Origin: Pararhodobacter zhoushanensis
Lineage (GTDB): Bacteria > Pseudomonadota > Alphaproteobacteria > Rhodobacterales > Rhodobacteraceae
Reading direction: 5' to 3'
Length of the DNA stretch: 64,000 bases
Assembly (NCBI RefSeq): GCF_003990445.1
Contig: NZ_REEZ01000008.1
Location: 1 to 64,000 of the forward strand
The stretch's first letter is position 1, and every line of letters starts with the position of its first letter. The notes below the pieces were generated by a model. That model was not told the origin of the DNA, ran no database searches, and was given only the letters and a program-made list of their open reading frames with translations. This document shows positions 522 through 23,326 of the stretch, piece by piece. A program made the translations under genes and the position numbers.

Positions 522-1967
522 TCAGAGCAGCCCGAAATACTCGCGCTGTTCCCACTCCGAGACCGTGGCGGCATAGCGTGCCCATTCCGCGCGCTTGAGG
601 GTCGCGATGTAGTCGACGAATTCAGGCCCGATGGCGTCGCGGTAGAGCGTGCTGCCCTCAAACGCGCTTAATGCTGCGTCCATCGAGCGGGGCAGGGCAC
701 GCACATCTGCCGCATAGGGCGTGTCGGACGGGGGCGGAGGGGTCAGATTCCCCTCGATCCCCGCCAGCCCCGAGATGATCTGCGACGCAAACACGTAATA
801 CGGGTTCGCGCCCGGCTCGGCGACGCGGTTCTCGATCCGGCTGGCGCGGTCTTCGGCCACCATCAGCGCGCGCACCATCGCGCCCCGGTTATCGCGGCCC
901 CACTGGATGCGGTCGGGGGCCATCTGGAACGGCTGGTAGCGTTTATAGCCGTTCACCGTGGGGGTGGTCAGGATGCAGGATGCCTCGGCATGCGCCAGCA
1001 GCCCGGCGATCCAGCCTGACGCCTCGGGGGTGATGTCGTGCCCTTCGGCGGGCATGAACAGGTTGCGCCCGTCTGACAGGTTGGTCAGCGACTGGTGCAG
1101 ATGCCAACCTGCCGAGGCCCCGCCTTCGATCTTCGGGCGGCACATGAAGCTGGCGTGCAACCCGCGCCGGGCGGCGACCTGTTTGGCCATCGCGCGCAGC
1201 ATGATCATGTTATCAGCGTGGGTCATCGCGTCGGCGGGGCCGAAAACGAACTCCACCTGCCCCGGCCCCATCTCGATCTCGACCGAGGTCAGCGGCATGC
1301 CAAGCGATTGCGCAGCGCGGCGCAGGTCGTCCAGAACCGGCTCCATCCGGTCATAGGTGGTGTCCGCCAGAAACTGATAGCCGGGGGCGAGCAGGCGGGT
1401 GTCGGGCGGGGTGCCCGGCAGGCCGCTATCGCTGTGCTCAAGATGCGGATTGGTCACTTCGAACAGGTTGAATTCAACCTCCAACCCCACCGTCAGCCCC
1501 CAACCGTGCGCTGCCAGCCGGGTGAGCGCGCCTTTCAGCACTTGCCGGGGCGCGTAGGAAATCGGCGTGCCATCAACCCGCGCCAGATCGCAAAACAGCC
1601 ACGCCGAGCCGGGCGACCACGACAATTCGCGGAAGGTGGCCGGGACCGGGATCAGCCACATATCCCCCGCACCCGCGCCTTGCCCGCCCTCACCGGACCA
1701 GACCGGAAACACCGTCCGGCCCGAGGTGTCCTTGAGCAGCAGCGTCGACGGCGCGCGCAGGCCAGAGCGGAAGACCGAGGGCAGCATGTCTGCCACCACC
1801 GTCTTGCCGCGCAAAATGCCGTGGGCGTCGGAAAACAACACGCGAACCGTCTCGATCCCAGCGGCCTTGACGCGGGCGAGGATCTCGGCGGCGCGGTCCA
1901 GCGCGTCGGGGCTCAGAAACCCCTGCCGGGCAAGCGTTCCGTCGGCCAGGGCGGTAGGATCAGTCAT
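522..1967 (-). CDS. Glutamine synthetase-like ligase (gamma-glutamylamide synthetase family)
   Basis: This 481-aa protein has the glutamine synthetase catalytic fold. Visible landmarks are a glutamate-rich metal site 'VEIEMGPGQVEF' and the ATP/glutamate site 'KIEGGASAGWHLHQSL'. Length and divergence fit the GS-like ligases (PuuA, IpuC, AtdA1 relatives) that join glutamate to amines rather than housekeeping GlnA; this is an inference. The start chosen is the ATG at 1965-1967 (MTDPTALADG); an upstream extension to 2060 reads like noncoding sequence. It is the last gene of a minus-strand group running from 4158: Rieske protein, oxygenase, unknown protein, GS. Aniline degradation also pairs a GS-like enzyme with a Rieske oxygenase, so glutamylation of an amine before oxidation is possible here. 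Confidence 0.85.
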   Translation of the reverse strand: MTDPTALADGTLARQGFLSPDALDRAAEILARVKAAGIETVRVLFSDAHGILRGKTVVADMLPSVFRSGLRAPSTLLLKDTSGRTVFPVWSGEGGQGAGAGDMWLIPVPATFRELSWSPGSAWLFCDLARVDGTPISYAPRQVLKGALTRLAAHGWGLTVGLEVEFNLFEVTNPHLEHSDSGLPGTPPDTRLLAPGYQFLADTTYDRMEPVLDDLRRAAQSLGMPLTSVEIEMGPGQVEFVFGPADAMTHADNMIMLRAMAKQVAARRGLHASFMCRPKIEGGASAGWHLHQSLTNLSDGRNLFMPAEGHDITPEASGWIAGLLAHAEASCILTTPTVNGYKRYQPFQMAPDRIQWGRDNRGAMVRALMVAEDRASRIENRVAEPGANPYYVFASQIISGLAGIEGNLTPPPPSDTPYAADVRALPRSMDAALSAFEGSTLYRDAIGPEFVDYIATLKRAEWARYAATVSEWEQREYFGLL

Positions 1968-2083
1968 GCAGCGCTCTCTTGGGTTCGGTCGGTGGCGGGC
2001 AACGAGAAGGCCCCGCGTGGGTGCCCGTGATATTGATAAACGAGGAACGGACCCATGCAACGGGCCTGTGGGTCGAGGACTGG

Positions 2084-2518
2084 TTACGCAAAGAAGGGCC
2101 GGACTTGGGGAGTGGTCGGCTCAGTCTGCGTAACCCCCGACCAGCCCACACCCCGCACGAACGCCGGTTCGCCCAGCCGGACATCGGCGGGCAGCGCGGG
2201 ATCGGCGCGGTCGTCAAACCAGCGCCACGCGCCTGCGCCTAACAAAAGCACGCTTTCAGCCCCAAACAGCGCGGTCACTACCAGCGTGTCGATCAGCCCC
2301 GCGTGGCCGTCGCGCAGGTGCAGCGGGACGGGTTCATCCGCAGCCAGACCCCGTACGTCCATCACCGGCGCATGGGTCAGCGTCAGGGTCACGCCGTCGA
2401 ACCCCTGCCGTGCGGCCATTTGCCGGAGGGACTCGCGCAGGGTGAAATAGCCGTCCAGAATGTCCTGAAACGGCCGCGCATCGCCGGGCGGGGCCGCTGT
2501 CAAACCGTGGCATCCCAC
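2084..2518 (-). CDS. Hypothetical protein, 144 aa, overlapping the oxygenase gene
   Basis: The start is a GTG at 2516-2518 that overlaps the 3' end of the oxygenase gene by 19 bp, which suggests translational coupling; an internal ATG at residue 34 is the alternative. I do not recognise the family. The chain is acidic, has no signal peptide or clear membrane segment, and contains a stretch 'LRDGHAGLIDTLVVTALFG' that faintly recalls the 'HAGE-x-ET' motif of creatininase-fold amidohydrolases, but the protein is much shorter than that family and lacks its N-terminal metal motif. It lies between a split Rieske oxygenase and a GS-like ligase, so a role in the same pathway is likely from context only. 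Truncation of a larger ancestor is possible. Confidence 0.55.
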   Translation of the reverse strand: MGCHGLTAAPPGDARPFQDILDGYFTLRESLRQMAARQGFDGVTLTLTHAPVMDVRGLAADEPVPLHLRDGHAGLIDTLVVTALFGAESVLLLGAGAWRWFDDRADPALPADVRLGEPAFVRGVGWSGVTQTEPTTPQVRPFFA

Positions 2519-3726
2519 GGGCAGCCCGCGCGGCGTTCAGTATCCATCTGCTTGCTGGCTGCCACCCAATTGCCGGTGTCGCCGATGGCGTCATTCGACA
2601 AGGGGCCGATGATCTGCGGCGTCAGGGCGCGGTCCTGCATCGGCAGCTTCTCTGGCTGACCCGTCTCCAGCGCCTTGATCGCGCGGCGCAGCATCAGGCG
2701 GTAGCGCACGATGGCAGCGTCCCCCCTGCCCAGATGCTCGCGCGTGCGGTCCTGAATCGCGCCCAGCCCCTCAACCGCCCATTGGTCATGCACGTTGATG
2801 TCCGGTCCCATGCCCGTATAGGTCTGGGTCTCCTGCTCGTCGGGGTCAAAGTGATAGGCGTTCGTGCGATTCTTGAGCGGCGCGTAATCCGGCAGCCGGT
2901 GCTCTTTGAGCCGCTGCGCGCGCATCAGCTCTTTGTTCACTGGCTGGCGGAAGCTGGTGAACATGGTGAACCAATAGCAGGTCTCATCATCGACCGGCAC
3001 ATGCCACTGGGTGATGATCATTTCGCGCGACATCGGGATGCAGATGGCCGAGGGGAAGATCTGGTTGGTCACACGGACATGCGTCAGGTCATGCGCCATA
3101 TGGCGCAGGGCGGTGATCTTCAGCCCATAATCGGTTTCCTCGACCTCAAGATCCGGCCGCGGGTATTCGCGCAGAAGCTGGGTCATCGGCATGTCGGTAT
3201 GCGCCGCCTTGTCGCGGAACTGCTTGCCGTAGCTGTCGGCGGGGTCTTCGTCTTCGAGGAAGCGGTGCAGGAACGAGGCATGCGAGGGGTCGATGCCGAT
3301 CTCAAGCGCCTGCAGCCAGTTGCATTCCCACAGGCCCTTGAAGGCAAAGACATGGCTGTCGGGGGCGCGGAAACAGTCGAAATTGGGGAAGGCGGGCGGC
3401 TCGCCGGTGCCCAGATAGGCGAAGAACACGCCCTTCTTCTCGACGACGGGATAGACCGGGCCGCCCTCGACCACGCGGATATCGTCGCGCGCCGGGTGGT
3501 GCGCCGGGGGCTCATCGGGCGTGCTTTGCCGGGTGGCGAGGATATAGCCCTCCCCCTGGCGCAACAGCACCAGCCGCTCGCCCAGCAGGTTGACCGGGAG
3601 GCGCGGCTCGTCGTCGGTCAGCTCGTCCACCAGCGCGGCGGGTTGCCAGTACATCCGGTGAACCGCGCCCGCCGGGGTGTCGGGGCCGATGCGGGTGATC
3701 TGGTCGTTCAGCTTTTGCGAGATCAT
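2500..3726 (-). CDS. Rieske-type oxygenase catalytic subunit lacking the [2Fe-2S] cluster ligands (split phthalate-dioxygenase family)
   Basis: A 408-aa protein related to the alpha subunits of phthalate 4,5-dioxygenase-type oxygenases. The start of the Rieske domain is present ('RIGPDTPAGAVHRMYWQPA', 'LLGERLVLLRQGEG') and the catalytic domain is complete, with the mononuclear iron region 'NWLQALEIGIDPSHASFLH' (N136, E142, D146, H149, H154). The segment where CxH and CxxH should bind the iron-sulfur cluster is replaced by a short stretch without cysteines (about residues 61-90). The adjacent upstream gene supplies exactly that missing domain as a separate protein. The likely role is the nonheme-iron hydroxylating half of a two-protein oxygenase; the substrate is unknown. 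No flavin/ferredoxin reductase lies beside it. ATG at 3726; the preceding gene ends 21 bp upstream. Confidence 0.85.
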   Translation of the reverse strand: MISQKLNDQITRIGPDTPAGAVHRMYWQPAALVDELTDDEPRLPVNLLGERLVLLRQGEGYILATRQSTPDEPPAHHPARDDIRVVEGGPVYPVVEKKGVFFAYLGTGEPPAFPNFDCFRAPDSHVFAFKGLWECNWLQALEIGIDPSHASFLHRFLEDEDPADSYGKQFRDKAAHTDMPMTQLLREYPRPDLEVEETDYGLKITALRHMAHDLTHVRVTNQIFPSAICIPMSREMIITQWHVPVDDETCYWFTMFTSFRQPVNKELMRAQRLKEHRLPDYAPLKNRTNAYHFDPDEQETQTYTGMGPDINVHDQWAVEGLGAIQDRTREHLGRGDAAIVRYRLMLRRAIKALETGQPEKLPMQDRALTPQIIGPLSNDAIGDTGNWVAASKQMDTERRAGCPWDATV

Positions 3727-3747
3727 TGTGGCGTCCTTTCGGGGCGG

Positions 3748-4158
3748 TCAGGCGTCAGAGGCGGCGGTAGCGGGCAGGGGCGGCGGCGCGCCGTCACCGA
3801 ACCACGCATAGATCGCGCCGCCCGCTTCGATCACCGGGAAACTGGGCAGGCGGATGGTCTTGAACATGGTGGAATCCGCGGGCTCGGCCGGTTGTTCGGT
3901 GCATTGTCCCGTGCGGTCGAAGTGCCAGCCATGGAAGGGACAGCGCAGGCCGTTATCCTCGCGCCGGCCAAAACACAGATCCGCGCCGCGATGCGGGCAA
4001 TGGCGCCCGATCAGGCCCAGCTCGCCGTCGTTGTCGCGAAACAGTACCAGCCGCTGGCCAAAGGCCTCCACGGGCACCACCGGGCGCTTGACGGCCATGT
4101 CCTGCGCTTGTGCGACGACAACCCAATCGGTGGGGGCTAGGTCGGCGGCGTGGGACAT
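3748..4158 (-). CDS. Stand-alone Rieske [2Fe-2S] protein, partner of the split oxygenase
   Basis: A 136-aa single-domain Rieske protein. The cluster ligands are plain: 'CPHRGADLCFG' (C54, H56) and 'CPFHGWHFD' (C73, H76). It resembles the N-terminal domain of phthalate-dioxygenase-type alpha subunits more than a small ferredoxin and stops at 'WFGDGAPPPLP', about where the catalytic domain would begin in a one-piece enzyme. It is first in the minus-strand operon, 21 bp upstream of the catalytic subunit that lacks these ligands. The inferred role is to carry electrons to the mononuclear iron of that subunit. An AGGAGA ribosome site precedes the ATG at 4158. The IclR regulator is divergent. Confidence 0.88.
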   Translation of the reverse strand: MSHAADLAPTDWVVVAQAQDMAVKRPVVPVEAFGQRLVLFRDNDGELGLIGRHCPHRGADLCFGRREDNGLRCPFHGWHFDRTGQCTEQPAEPADSTMFKTIRLPSFPVIEAGGAIYAWFGDGAPPPLPATAASDA

Positions 4159-4200: not shown

Positions 4201-4238
4201 GTTTGTGCGTTATTTGAACATTCGTGCGTTATATAAAC
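4201..4238. promoter_or_regulatory. Candidate IclR operator: direct repeat GTGCGTTAT x2
   Basis: Between the divergent Rieske gene and the iclR-type gene, GTGCGTTAT occurs at 4205-4213 and 4224-4232, 19 bp apart start to start (about two helical turns). The outer ends GTTT (4201-4204) and AAAC (4235-4238) are inverted. The site lies 43 bp upstream of the Rieske start codon and 75 bp upstream of the regulator start, a position suited to control both promoters. Confidence 0.5.
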
Positions 4239-4312: not shown

Positions 4313-5089
4313 ATGAGCGATACCGACGAAAAGAAGGGCGCTTCGACCTTTGCGAAAGGTCTGCGCGTGCTCGAATGCTTCGAGGGCGGTGCGCGGGGCC
4401 TGACCATGGCGGGCATCAGCAAAACCACCGGCATGGACCGCGCCACGGTGCGCCGGCTGTGCCTGACGTTGGTTGAATCCGGGTATCTGGCCCAGAGCGG
4501 GCATGAATTGCACCTGACGCCGCGCATTCTGGCCCCGGCGGGGGGATACCTGATGGCCAATGATTTTGGCCGCGCGATCCAGCCCGTGCTGACCGCCTTC
4601 GCACAGGAACTGGGCGGCGAGATTTCAATGGCGGTGCGCGACCGCGACCGGGCGCTTTATGTTGCGCAATCGGTCACGCCGGGCGCACGGTTGTCCATCG
4701 GGTTTGTCGTTGGCAGTTCGATCCCGCTTTTGCCCACTGCAATCGGTCGCATGCTGCTGGCGTCCAGCCCGCACGCGGATCGTGAGCGGGCTTTGCGCAG
4801 GCTACCCCACATCCGCTACACCGATGCAACCGACACCGACCCCGCGTCCCTTGATGCCAAGATCAGCGCCGCTGCGGATCAGGGTTACGCCGTCGTGCGC
4901 GGCGAATTCGAAGCGGGCGTCACGGCGCTGGCGGTTGCTGTCGGAAACCATGCGCATACGACGGCGGTCATCGGCACCTCGGTTGCCGGTGCGACGCTGG
5001 AGGATGACGCCGAAAGGGCGCGGATGCTCGACATCCTGCGCCGCGCGGCGCGCAGCCTGCGCGGGCCGGACCGGTCCGCCCCGCGATAA
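4313..5089 (+). CDS. IclR-family transcriptional regulator
   Basis: 258 aa from the ATG at 4313 (MSDTDEKKG); the 36 codons upstream read through the promoter repeats and were not used. The N-terminal winged helix (about residues 11-70) contains 'KGLRVLECFEGGARGLTM' and 'MDRATVRRLCLTLVESGYL', typical of IclR/PcaR proteins that control aromatic catabolism. The effector domain (about 80-250) includes 'ARLSIGFVVGSSIPLLPTA' and 'VVRGEFEAGVTALAVAV'. The gene is divergent from the Rieske operon and convergent with the ThDP enzyme, ending 7 bp from it. It most likely senses a pathway intermediate and controls the oxygenase operon. Confidence 0.9.
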   Translation: MSDTDEKKGASTFAKGLRVLECFEGGARGLTMAGISKTTGMDRATVRRLCLTLVESGYLAQSGHELHLTPRILAPAGGYLMANDFGRAIQPVLTAFAQELGGEISMAVRDRDRALYVAQSVTPGARLSIGFVVGSSIPLLPTAIGRMLLASSPHADRERALRRLPHIRYTDATDTDPASLDAKISAAADQGYAVVRGEFEAGVTALAVAVGNHAHTTAVIGTSVAGATLEDDAERARMLDILRRAARSLRGPDRSAPR

Positions 5090-5096
5090 GCCGCAC

Positions 5097-6722
5097 TCAG
5101 ATCCGCATCCGTGGCACATCTGTGGGATCGAGCTTGAGCTCGATCAGCAGCGGTCGGTCACGTTTCGGGATCGCTGCGAGCGCAGCCGCGAGTGTCTCAT
5201 CCGAGTCGACACGCAGCCCCTGTCCCCCCAGCGCCGTGGCCACCGCCGCGAACGAGGGCCATTCGAATTCTGTCAGTGCCGGGTCCATGTTGCGGTCGAT
5301 GAACTGGATGTGCTCGGCCCCATAAGCACTGTCGTTGGCGACGATGACGATCAGATCCTGCTTGAGCCGCACCGCCGTGTTGAACTCGTTGATCCCGCCC
5401 ATCATGAACCCGCCGTCGCCGGTAAACAGCACCACCGGACGCGAGCGGTCGGCCAGCCCTGCGCCGATGGCTTCCTGCAAACCCAGCCCGATCGAGCCGA
5501 AATTCGCCGTAACCAGAAAACTGCGCGGATCGGGGGCTGAGATCCGGCACCAGACTTCGGTCATGAAGCGCCCGCCGTCGGTGGTCAGGATACGCTGTTT
5601 GGGTAGTGCCGCTTCCAGTTGCTCCAGCGCGGCGATGTAATTGGCAAAGCCCGGTTTGGTGCTGCTGCGGGGCGGGGTGTGGGCCGTCAGCGTCGCGCGG
5701 TCCAGCTCGCGCGTGAAGCCCGACGGCGGGATCTCGGCCTCGTCCAGCCAGTACAGGATATTGTCGGCTGTCAGTGCGGCATCGGCGACCAGCGCGACAT
5801 CGGGGTGGAAGTTCTTGGCAACTTCGGTCAGCGAGTCGTTGACCTGCACCACGCGCTTGCCTTTGAGCAGCTTGCCCCTGTCGGTGGTGAAATGGTGCAG
5901 CGAGGTGCCGAAGCACACGATGCAATCGGCCTTGGCGATCAAGTCATAGGCAGCGGGGGTCGAGAGCGTGCCGAAGATGTCCATGTTATAGGGATGGTCG
6001 TTGAACAGGCCCTTGGCCTTGAGCGACGTGGCCAGCGGGGCCTCAAGCCGGTCCGCAAGCCGGATCAGCGCATCCCGTGCGTCGACTGCGCCGCCGCCGG
6101 CCAGGATCACCGGGCGCCGGGCCGAGGCGATCATCCCCACGGCCTCGTCCAGATCATCGCCAGCCGGGACCATCGCCGGGGCGGTAAAGGTCGGGAAGAC
6201 GGTCTTGGTGTGCTCGACCTCTTGCCACATGAAATCGGCGGGCATGTTCACCACGATGGGCCGCTTCTCTACCCGCGCGCGGTAAAAGGCGTGCGCGACG
6301 TCATAGGCGGCGGTCTGCGGTGCGCGCACCTGCTCGAATCCCGCGCCGGTGACTTTGACCACTTCCCGCTGGTCGATGCTTTGCAGGTTCTGCGGGTTCA
6401 TCACGGCGGTATCGCCCGCCAGCAGCACCATCGGGATATGTCCGCGCGCGCCTTCGGTCAGGGCTGTGACGCAATTGGTCAACGCCGGGCCATGGGTGAC
6501 CGTGGCCACGCCAACCGAGCCGGAAACATGGCTGTAGGCCAGCGCCATCAGGACGCTGCTGCCTTCATAGGCGGCGGGCACAAATGTACCGCCCCCGTCG
6601 CGGACGAAATCGTCGACCATGAACAGATTGGCATCGCCCATCAGTCCGAACATAGTGTCGACACCATGGTCCAACACGGAGCGGGCGATGGATTGATAGC
6701 AAAGAGTCTTTGCCTCGGGCAT
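5097..6722 (-). CDS. Thiamine diphosphate-dependent enzyme, acetolactate synthase-like
   Basis: 541 aa from the ATG at 6722 (MPEAKTL). The domain order is that of the ThDP enzymes: N-terminal Pyr domain with catalytic glutamate in 'AAYEGSS' (E53), central NAD-like domain with 'PVILAGGGAVDARDALIRLA', and C-terminal PP domain with the cofactor motif starting 'GDGGFMMGGINEFNTAV' near residue 435 and ending 'ANDSAYG'. Such proteins include acetolactate synthase, benzoylformate decarboxylase, oxalyl-CoA decarboxylase and sulfoacetaldehyde acetyltransferase. No small IlvH-type subunit is nearby, which argues against branched-chain biosynthesis and for a catabolic lyase or decarboxylase role. The exact substrate cannot be read from the sequence. 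Confidence 0.85.
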   Translation of the reverse strand: MPEAKTLCYQSIARSVLDHGVDTMFGLMGDANLFMVDDFVRDGGGTFVPAAYEGSSVLMALAYSHVSGSVGVATVTHGPALTNCVTALTEGARGHIPMVLLAGDTAVMNPQNLQSIDQREVVKVTGAGFEQVRAPQTAAYDVAHAFYRARVEKRPIVVNMPADFMWQEVEHTKTVFPTFTAPAMVPAGDDLDEAVGMIASARRPVILAGGGAVDARDALIRLADRLEAPLATSLKAKGLFNDHPYNMDIFGTLSTPAAYDLIAKADCIVCFGTSLHHFTTDRGKLLKGKRVVQVNDSLTEVAKNFHPDVALVADAALTADNILYWLDEAEIPPSGFTRELDRATLTAHTPPRSSTKPGFANYIAALEQLEAALPKQRILTTDGGRFMTEVWCRISAPDPRSFLVTANFGSIGLGLQEAIGAGLADRSRPVVLFTGDGGFMMGGINEFNTAVRLKQDLIVIVANDSAYGAEHIQFIDRNMDPALTEFEWPSFAAVATALGGQGLRVDSDETLAAALAAIPKRDRPLLIELKLDPTDVPRMRI

Positions 6723-21143: not shown

Positions 21144-22508
21144 TCACAGGGTTGTGCCGTAGAGCTGCCATTCCAGATCGGTAACACTGACCGCCAGCGC
21201 GTCGTGTTCACCGCGCTTGAGCGCGGCGAAGAGCGCATGCAGGGGTGCGCCAAGGAGGGATTTCATGCTGTCCGAAGCCTCGAATGCGTCGATCGCGTCC
21301 AGCCAGCTGCGCGGCATGGGCGGATAGGCTGCTGCACCCTCGGCACCTTCGATGCCGGGGTTGGTGCCGATGTCGATCCCGTCCAGCGCCGCCCCCAAGG
21401 TGATCGCGGCGACCAGATAGGGGTTGGCGTCGACCCCTGCCACCCGGTGCTCAAAGTGCCGGGACTTGGCGCTGCCCGCCGGGATGCGCAGGGCAACGTT
21501 GCGATCCTCATTTCCCCATGTGTTCGCGGCGGGGGAATACACCGTCCCGGCAAAGCGCCGCCAGCTGTTGAGCACAGGCGCCAGCACCAGCATCGACGCG
21601 GCCATGCTGGCGCGAATGCCACCAAGGGCGTGCAGCATCAGCGGCGACAGCGTCCCCTCGGACGGGTCCGCAAACAGGTTCACCCCTGCCGCATCGGTCA
21701 GCGACAGGTGCAGATGCATCCCCGAGCCCGAGCTGCGCGAGAACGGCTTGGCCATGAAGCACGCCTCCATGCCAAAGCGCCGCGCGGTGGCGCGCAGCAG
21801 GCGTTTGGCGCGGACAATATCATCCGTCGCCTGCGCCAGGTCGCGGTAGCGCAGGGTCAGCTCGAACTGCCCGGCGGCGTATTCCGAGATCAGGCTCTCC
21901 ATCGGCAGACCCAGCGCCGCCGCGCCCGCGTAAACGGCGTCAAAGAACGGCGACATCTCGTCCAGCTCATCCACCGACATGCAGTTGGTGTGCGACAGGC
22001 GGCGCCCGGTCATCGGGGCGCGGGCGGGTTGCGGGCGTCCGGCGCCGTCACGGTCCTTGTCGAGCAGGTAAAACTCCAGCTCCAGCGCGCCCATCGGGGT
22101 AAAGCCCATGCCCTGCGCCCTGTCGATCTGCGCCAACAGCGCGGCGCGCGGGTCAAGCGGGCAGGGCGCGCCGTCGGCCCCCTCCATCTGCAACAGAACG
22201 ACGCCGCGCCCGGTGGCCTGATGATAGCCCAGCGTCTGCGGCACCGGCCAGCAACGGCTGTCCCCGCCGCCGTCCTGTATCAGCGCAATTGCCGCCTCGA
22301 TATCATCGCCCGATACGTCCTGTGCGAACAGCGAGGCAGGCATGCCGCGGCCGGTGGTGAACAGGCTTTCCAGCTCGTGTCGGCGAATGATCTTGCCCCG
22401 GCCCACACCGTGCAGATCGCTGAGCACGATGTCGATGGCCTCCACATCGGGATAGGCGGCCAGAAAGGCGGTCGCTTCGGACAGCGGTGCGCGGAGGGTG
22501 TGGGTCAT
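21144..22508 (-). CDS. Glutamine synthetase-like ligase (gamma-glutamylpolyamine synthetase type)
   Basis: 454 aa from the ATG at 22508. Family landmarks are 'SEYAAGQFELTLRYRD' and the nucleotide/glutamate site 'KPFSRSSGSGMHLHLSL'. The length and the 'SGSGMHLHLSL' wording match PuuA/GlnA3-type enzymes that ligate glutamate to amines and polyamines. This is the second GS-like gene in the window; the other (522-1967) is only distantly similar. It is cotranscribed with the GntR regulator and lies among an importer, a racemase-fold protein and an aminotransferase, supporting uptake and gamma-glutamylation of an amino compound. Confidence 0.88.
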   Translation of the reverse strand: MTHTLRAPLSEATAFLAAYPDVEAIDIVLSDLHGVGRGKIIRRHELESLFTTGRGMPASLFAQDVSGDDIEAAIALIQDGGGDSRCWPVPQTLGYHQATGRGVVLLQMEGADGAPCPLDPRAALLAQIDRAQGMGFTPMGALELEFYLLDKDRDGAGRPQPARAPMTGRRLSHTNCMSVDELDEMSPFFDAVYAGAAALGLPMESLISEYAAGQFELTLRYRDLAQATDDIVRAKRLLRATARRFGMEACFMAKPFSRSSGSGMHLHLSLTDAAGVNLFADPSEGTLSPLMLHALGGIRASMAASMLVLAPVLNSWRRFAGTVYSPAANTWGNEDRNVALRIPAGSAKSRHFEHRVAGVDANPYLVAAITLGAALDGIDIGTNPGIEGAEGAAAYPPMPRSWLDAIDAFEASDSMKSLLGAPLHALFAALKRGEHDALAVSVTDLEWQLYGTTL

Positions 22509-22567
22509 GGTCGGCACTCTGTTGGTCAATGGGGTGGGGGCTGGCCGGCGAGGCCAGTGCAAAGGCC

Positions 22568-23326
22568 TTATCCGGCAGTCATGCCGCCGTCGACCGGGAT
22601 CAGGGTGCCGGTCATATAGCCTGCAGCCTCGGACAGCAGAAACGCCACAACCCGTGCGACATCCTGCGGCGTGCCGACCCGTCCCATGGGAACCTGAGCG
22701 CCGTAGCTGGCAATCTTGGCGGCTCTGTCGTCCCCTGTCAGCCCGGCGGCGATCATCGGTGTGTCGGTGTCGCCCGGGCACACGGCGTTGATGCGAATTC
22801 CCTCGGCGGCGTGATCCAGCGCCATGCAGCGTGTCAGCTGTGCGACCGCCGCCTTGGACACCGCGTAGGCCACGGCCCCACGCGCCCCGGTCAGCGCCCA
22901 GTCTGACGCGATGTTCACGATGGACCCGCCGCGCTGGCGCAGGGCAGGAAGGGCGGCGCGCGACAGGCGGAACACCGCACCAAGGTTCACATCCATTATT
23001 TGGTCCCATTCCGCATCCGAGGTTTCCTCGGCCGTTCCATGGCTCAACAGCCCTGCGTTGTTAATCAGCGCATCGACACGGCCAAAGGACTCCAGTGCTG
23101 CCTGAACGATGGCTTCGGGTGCGTTGCGATCAGTCACATCGGCGCGCAGGAAGTGCGCGGTTGCGCCGCCTTGGGACAAACGGGTCGCGAACGCCGCGCC
23201 CTCGGCGTGCCGCCGTCCAACCAGAAGCAGGGCAAAGCCCTGCGCGGCCAGTTCCTCGGCAATCGCCTCGCCAATGCCCGAGGTGGCACCAGTCACAATT
23301 GCGCAGCGCGTGCTGTCGGGGGTCAT
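22568..23326 (-). CDS. SDR-family oxidoreductase
   Basis: 252 aa, usual length for classical SDRs. Cofactor site 'IVTGATSGIGEAIAEEL', structural 'NNAGLLSHG', catalytic serine in 'NIASDWALTG' and YxxxK in 'VAYAVSKAAVAQL'. The C-terminus 'MTGTLIPVDGGMTAG' is typical. It is first in the minus-strand group SDR-GS-GntR, 59 bp ahead of the GS gene, and divergent from the carnitine-dehydrogenase-like gene across 182 bp. It may oxidise a hydroxylated intermediate of the same route. Confidence 0.88.
   Translation of the reverse strand: MTPDSTRCAIVTGATSGIGEAIAEELAAQGFALLLVGRRHAEGAAFATRLSQGGATAHFLRADVTDRNAPEAIVQAALESFGRVDALINNAGLLSHGTAEETSDAEWDQIMDVNLGAVFRLSRAALPALRQRGGSIVNIASDWALTGARGAVAYAVSKAAVAQLTRCMALDHAAEGIRINAVCPGDTDTPMIAAGLTGDDRAAKIASYGAQVPMGRVGTPQDVARVVAFLLSEAAGYMTGTLIPVDGGMTAG

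Follow-up and report, generated by a model that had tools for sequence, protein, structure and literature searches.

Standard Rieske oxygenases carry the cluster and the iron on one chain. Three-component oxygenases use Rieske ferredoxins as shuttles, and their oxygenase keeps a cluster of its own. According to the accessible text on the carnitine oxygenase CntA, the cluster and the iron are 44 Å apart within a subunit and 12.2 Å apart across the interface, and the bridging residue E205 is essential (PMC7948474). In NdmCDE, the 7-methylxanthine N7-demethylase of Pseudomonas putida CBB5, a third protein, NdmE, is required; it is GST-like and is thought to align NdmC and NdmD, as stated in the available part of PMC4408171. 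In addition, excerpts on aniline/1-naphthylamine dioxygenase describe a glutamine-synthetase-like enzyme that gamma-glutamylates the amine, after which a Rieske oxygenase acts (PMC11335346). A figure legend on the sad genes for 4-aminobenzenesulfonate gives sadA as the dioxygenase, sadB as a glutamine synthetase and sadC as a ferredoxin, and the same partly available source names Novosphingobium resinovorum SA1 as a degrader of this compound (PMC5632844).

The window analyzed here is a stretch of 64,000 nucleotides from Pararhodobacter zhoushanensis. Four genes on its minus strand, in the order RIE, CAT, third gene and glutamine-synthetase-like gene, are accompanied by a divergent IclR regulator gene:

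522..2060, minus strand: glutamine-synthetase-like gene, last of the four same-strand genes (alternative ATG at about 1967); PF00120, 267.7 bits
2084..2503, minus strand: third component of 139 aa, whose TTG start shares 4 nt with the end of CAT (alternative: 144 aa from GTG 2518); no Pfam family
2500..3726, minus strand: CAT, 408-aa oxygenase subunit without a cluster; LigXa_C (PF19301), 94.1 bits
3748..4158, minus strand: RIE, stand-alone Rieske protein, 136 aa; PF00355, 78.8 bits
4205-4213 and 4224-4232: direct repeat GTGCGTTAT, with copies 19 bp apart, in the stretch that separates RIE from the IclR gene; possible regulator site
4313..5089, plus strand: IclR-family regulator, PcaR/PobR-like (longest ORF from GTG 4205; ATG 4313); PF01614 and PF09339

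The best overall explanation, to which we give a probability of about 0.7 on the sequence evidence, is a predicted working Rieske oxygenase whose halves are encoded by two genes and which has the third protein as a partner. Like NdmCDE, as far as PMC4408171 was available, this set has a cluster-less oxygenase subunit (NdmC being likened by description), a Rieske domain located elsewhere and a third protein; the NdmC/NdmD precedent named in the preliminary description was thus apt. However, the Rieske domain of NdmCDE is fused to the reductase NdmD, whereas RIE is free-standing with no reductase attached, and NdmE is GST-like, while PPC-type folds are the best, though not an exclusive, match of the third protein here. 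Assignment of CAT to NdmCDE itself was ruled out by the free RIE, of which PF00355 is the sole Pfam match, and CAT is a LigXa_C-type oxygenase. CAT belongs to these oxygenases by descent and is not a standard alpha subunit, because its own cluster, a defining feature, has been lost. The CAT/RIE system would work like NdmCDE, having got there by a separate route. One-chain LigXa_C-type oxygenases with a glutamine-synthetase-like neighbor are direct relatives of CAT. Those of Polaromonas sp. JS666 plasmid 1 and Methylobacterium nodulans pMNOD01 have the same catalytic domain (52% identity), and those of the family show 62-74% identity over the catalytic part, but all of these carry both domains on a single chain. 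The sad and aniline/1-naphthylamine systems also combine a glutamine-synthetase-like enzyme with an oxygenase; no split is reported in the available parts of PMC11335346 and PMC5632844, SadA and AtdA3 being compared by description only. No paper in the literature searched by phrase speaks in such words of a split, stand-alone or missing Rieske domain.

The preliminary description had proposed a separate Rieske protein of 136 aa, and the Pfam match and the ligands read from the sequence (C54, H56, C73 and H76) bear this out. All four ligands were kept in the 39 RIE rows read by script. The RIE proteins of L123 and L132 were missed by this script; L123 encodes a 138-aa RIE with the motif. In L132 of Jiella pelagia, RIE lies in two overlapping frames (6129-6626 and 6283-6585), with the N-terminal part in one and the cluster part in the other. 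The nearest solved structures are the Rieske parts of 9ina, 7fjl and 7fhr, and RIE shares 88% identity in the cluster subdomain with 15 one-chain rows, which were picked from 44 as near. One different reading, unlikely in our judgment, treats RIE as a mobile Rieske ferredoxin, a mere visitor to CAT or to several oxygenases and no fixed subunit; the third protein would then have a different job, for instance in folding or substrate channeling. RIE is indeed close in size to Rieske ferredoxins, but among PDB sequences it matches the alpha subunits of oxygenases best, with 110.8 bits for 7fhr against only 23.8 bits for the Rieske ferredoxin 2i7f, and the RIE rows form one clade (99/98) within the Rieske domains of the oxygenase family, in a tree with few columns, no outgroup and bootstrap values that have not settled. 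The genome has three more oxygenase-sized Rieske ORFs (393, 444, and 447 aa) in other places, and conservation over 30 loci is lower for RIE than for CAT (median pairwise identity 0.63 vs 0.74); against this, the oxygenases of known three-component systems retain their cluster, whereas CAT has none.

The nearest solved relatives of CAT are the isophthalate dioxygenase 9ina and the phthalate dioxygenase structures 7fjl and 7fhr. The part of PMC12445078 that was available gives H177, H182 and D337 as the residues that bind the iron of 9ina, and C69, H71, C88 and H91 as those that bind its cluster. Transferred by hand on the alignment, these positions place the iron ligands of CAT at H149, H154 and D314, so that the 2-His-1-Asp site is present, and D146 at the position of the bridging carboxylate. 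The motif D-x2-H-x4-H and the HDQ that holds D314 occur in 41 of 41 split CAT rows, and the cluster motif C-x-H...C-x-x-H occurs in none of them. In contrast, both the cluster and the iron motifs are present in all 44 one-chain rows (29 from the family, 14 from the class search and 1 from a plasmid), of which L037 has an internal TAG. These counts confirm the earlier claim that CAT lacks all four cluster ligands and keeps the iron region. What had been overlooked, together with the third protein, is that the N-terminus of CAT retains the base of the Rieske domain without the cluster; an internal part was lost, and the chain was not broken off. It is very improbable that CAT has ceased to be an oxygenase and survives only to bind or regulate while RIE serves other enzymes. 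Universal loss of the cluster motif would suit this idea, but the iron ligands and the bridging aspartate are conserved, and the catalytic domain is 70-86% identical to the same 15 near one-chain rows. In that comparison, CAT reaches 86% over the NWLQ-D-H-H block, and its N-terminal tail 70%. Low dN/dS values, 0.035-0.15 for CAT and 0.05-0.21 for its Rieske-base part (8 pairs), also argue against it, as does the RIE gene, which adjoins CAT in 38 of 38 split loci and is broken up in one (L132).

In the window, RIE and CAT lie in the same frame, one TGA and 21 nt apart, with start signals ahead of both; AGGAG stands 6 nt upstream of the RIE ATG. The common frame and the single stop might recall a frameshift, an assembly error or a decaying gene, but this explanation is refuted by the start signals, by the occurrence of two genes at 38 distinct loci in many assemblies, by different frames with a 4-nt stop-start overlap at 19 of the 36 distinct loci with both genes read, by the internal position of the loss in CAT, and by the absence of a one-chain copy from the genomes with the split enzyme, each of these 10 having one match at E<=1e-100. 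The one-chain homologue in the same strain, which the preliminary description had named as a refutation, was therefore not found.

A CAT homologue at E<=1e-100 was found in 46 of the 394 family genomes. Ten of these align over residues 1-408 and are split, whereas 36 align only from residue 68-91 onwards and are one-chain, 29 of the latter having been fetched and motif-checked and 7 classed by alignment range alone. In the class-wide sample, a homologue at E<=1e-80 was present in 29 of 385 genomes, and the split type, judged by range, in our own genome only. Named split carriers include Pararhodobacter, Pseudooceanicola, Maritimibacter, Roseobacter sp. GAI101 and four Hyphomicrobiales; one of the ten genomes belongs to the window's genus, and its CAT shows no difference from the Pararhodobacter sp. 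CCB-MM2 protein. In the catalytic-region tree, rooted on the long-branched outgroup L020, the 41 split rows (38 distinct loci) form one clade (100/100) inside the one-chain family, and four one-chain enzymes are its nearest kin (joint clade 97/94). L093, L100 and L104 were omitted from this tree because the script demanded an exact CPHR; the wider cluster motif is present in all three. Since the CAT tree and the Rieske-domain tree agree, a single origin of the split within the one-chain family is most likely. The gene pair, first described for this locus alone, is conserved in other genomes, which fits a single origin. Distance matrices were compared at 30 of the 38 distinct loci, those where the script read all three proteins. 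They correlate for RIE and CAT (0.69), CAT and the third protein (0.73), and RIE and the third protein (0.47), in each case beyond all 1000 permutations, which would be expected of any genes inherited together.

The third protein is constant in the split clade and would represent a new type of accessory among Rieske oxygenases. Its model consists of one helix and a beta sheet, and the best fold match is of the PPC/DUF296 type, compared with the Pyrococcus PPC 2dt4 and AF0104 2h6l, a fold search of this kind leaving room for other families. A PF03479 (PPC/DUF296) sequence match is absent, a GST fold was not found among the fold matches listed, and no PDB sequence matched below E 0.9. NCBIfam searched with 33 third proteins gave two families, each matched by one of the 33 (best E 0.064). 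Kinship with RIE was rejected (hhalign probability 0.2%). With at most seven candidates scored per genome, the third protein was found in 10 of the 394 family genomes, exactly the ten with split CAT, and not in the 36 with a one-chain enzyme; as the profile was built from those 10 genomes, what counts as evidence is that the remaining 384, which include the 36, lack it. In the class sample of 385 genomes, scored with the same limit of seven, split CAT and third protein both occur only in our own genome. Conversely, RIE and CAT are present at all 34 loci found through the third-protein motif, 26 of them outside the 10. Because every examined split relative has it, evolution seems to have made one enzyme into a several-part machine, and together with NdmE it suggests that an off-chain Rieske domain tends to need a helper. 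Several alphaproteobacterial genomes have PF03479 matches two by two at short distance, for example at G514:C94:5649-6502 and G420:C1:868585-869459.

For the predicted two-gene oxygenase, the following course appears plausible. An ancestral one-chain enzyme would have been duplicated, wholly or partly, and the copies would have degenerated complementarily; the sequences bear out this complementary retention, with the cluster-bearing part kept in RIE and the catalytic domain and Rieske base in CAT. CAT would probably still form an alpha3 ring, on which RIE may dock with its cluster in place of the lost part of the neighboring subunit, and electrons would pass from RIE through D146 to the iron held by H149, H154 and D314. 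The third protein, always present, would be a structural component that brings RIE onto CAT or keeps it there, a part proposed for NdmE with NdmC and NdmD. Co-occurrence, overlapping genes and common ancestry strongly support the previous suggestion that RIE serves CAT, but the joint model is weak: the AlphaFold model of RIE and CAT is middling (pLDDT 71.1, pTM 0.66), and the cluster and iron loops have pLDDT 40-58, which makes the cluster-iron distance unreliable. It is uncertain whether there is space for the whole RIE beside CAT if the Rieske base stays put. Also against this explanation are the two overlapping frames of RIE in L132 and the dN/dS values of RIE, up to 0.42 in one of the 8 pairs, and of the third protein, 0.24-0.41. 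A more specific picture is possible and can be offered tentatively: a heteromer built from CAT, RIE and a trimer of the PPC-like protein, which forms a ring on the CAT ring like a beta subunit and presents a detachable RIE to each active site, one branch being fed from NADPH through FAD oxidoreductase and flavodoxin.

The separation is clean and conserved within the clade, and a new partner always accompanies it. The single chain of standard Rieske oxygenases makes the contributions of cluster, iron and contact hard to vary separately. Here, cluster and iron are on separate natural proteins, with the family's one-chain relatives as controls, and the split would permit the mixing of components to test electron transfer, gating and donor choice and would provide a modular oxygenase for engineering.

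The third gene directly follows CAT at 17 of the 38 distinct split loci (layout A), and the glutamine-synthetase-like gene stands between them at the other 21 (layout B). A FAD oxidoreductase gene and a flavodoxin gene lie divergently 5' of RIE in 12 of the 17 layout-A loci; in L141, an IclR gene stands between RIE and this pair. They are candidate donors in that branch, and the donor to RIE would differ by lineage. The pair was rejected as a general donor, being absent from 5 of the 17 layout-A loci, the window among them, and from the surroundings of all 21 layout-B loci; it was also found at none of the 12 one-chain loci tested. A 2Fe-2S ferredoxin and a FAD reductase adjoin the oxygenase at 5 of the 6 one-chain plasmid loci opened, out of 11 plasmid matches. 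In part of the split clade, a change of architecture may thus have brought a change of donor module, but not generally. The earlier idea that the split allows donor swapping is only hinted at: adjacent redox genes differ between branches, but neither kind is adjacent at any of the 11 nearer one-chain loci. Our own genome has 13 Fer2 matches, none on the window's contig, and a related FAD oxidoreductase/flavodoxin pair at C34:106294-107906 (48 and 52% identity). This pair sits kilobases from another, one-chain Rieske oxygenase (L160, G000:C34:97000-116900), with ORFs between them that by eye resemble an aldehyde dehydrogenase and a ThDP enzyme. Among the genomes searched, FAD oxidoreductase homologues occur in 3 of 10 one-chain and 3 of 10 split genomes, and flavodoxin homologues in 3 of 10 and 7 of 10, respectively. 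Flavodoxin as a donor for Rieske oxygenases was not found in the literature searched.

The gene context includes a feature of glutamylation-dependent amine dioxygenase sets, a glutamine-synthetase-like gene by the oxygenase (window 522-2060). Of the 34 named split loci, 32 have a homologue in the flanks that were fetched, as do 10 of 11 one-chain loci. From this context, the likely reaction, in concert with this enzyme, is oxygenation of a gamma-glutamylated aromatic amine. The substrate would be an aromatic amine, for example aminobenzoate or aminobenzenesulfonate, which is the least certain step. A one-chain relative on the plasmid of N. resinovorum SA1 has a glutamine-synthetase-like neighbor and a maleylacetate reductase gene about 2 kb off. 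At the Palleronia split locus, the glutamine-synthetase-like gene adjoins pcaB, pcaD, pcaG and pcaH, 8-13 kb from CAT; no pca genes were found near the other split loci and flanks searched. For a gamma-glutamyl hydrolase (GAT-like), tblastn with the Caballeronia homologue against the locus flanks and the window matched only itself. Nothing supported homarine as the substrate.

The IclR regulator scores 177.4 bits against TIGR02431, under the cut-off of 284.75. The element ATAACGCA/TGCGTTAT recurs 5' of some split and one-chain loci only, which makes it no more than a lead towards a shared regulator site. Clustering of all neighbor ORFs was too noisy for use, because picking the longest ORFs in GC-rich DNA takes antisense frames. 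A 5-carboxymethyl-2-hydroxymuconate isomerase-like gene adjoins many layout-A split loci (L142 14364-14702, L131 8444-8776, and L189 7955-8296) and also lies beside the one-chain relative of Novosphingobium SA1. In addition, a second glutamine-synthetase-like gene is present in the window at 21144-23009, near genes for a GntR/FCD regulator, a class-III aminotransferase and a 3-hydroxyacyl-CoA dehydrogenase.
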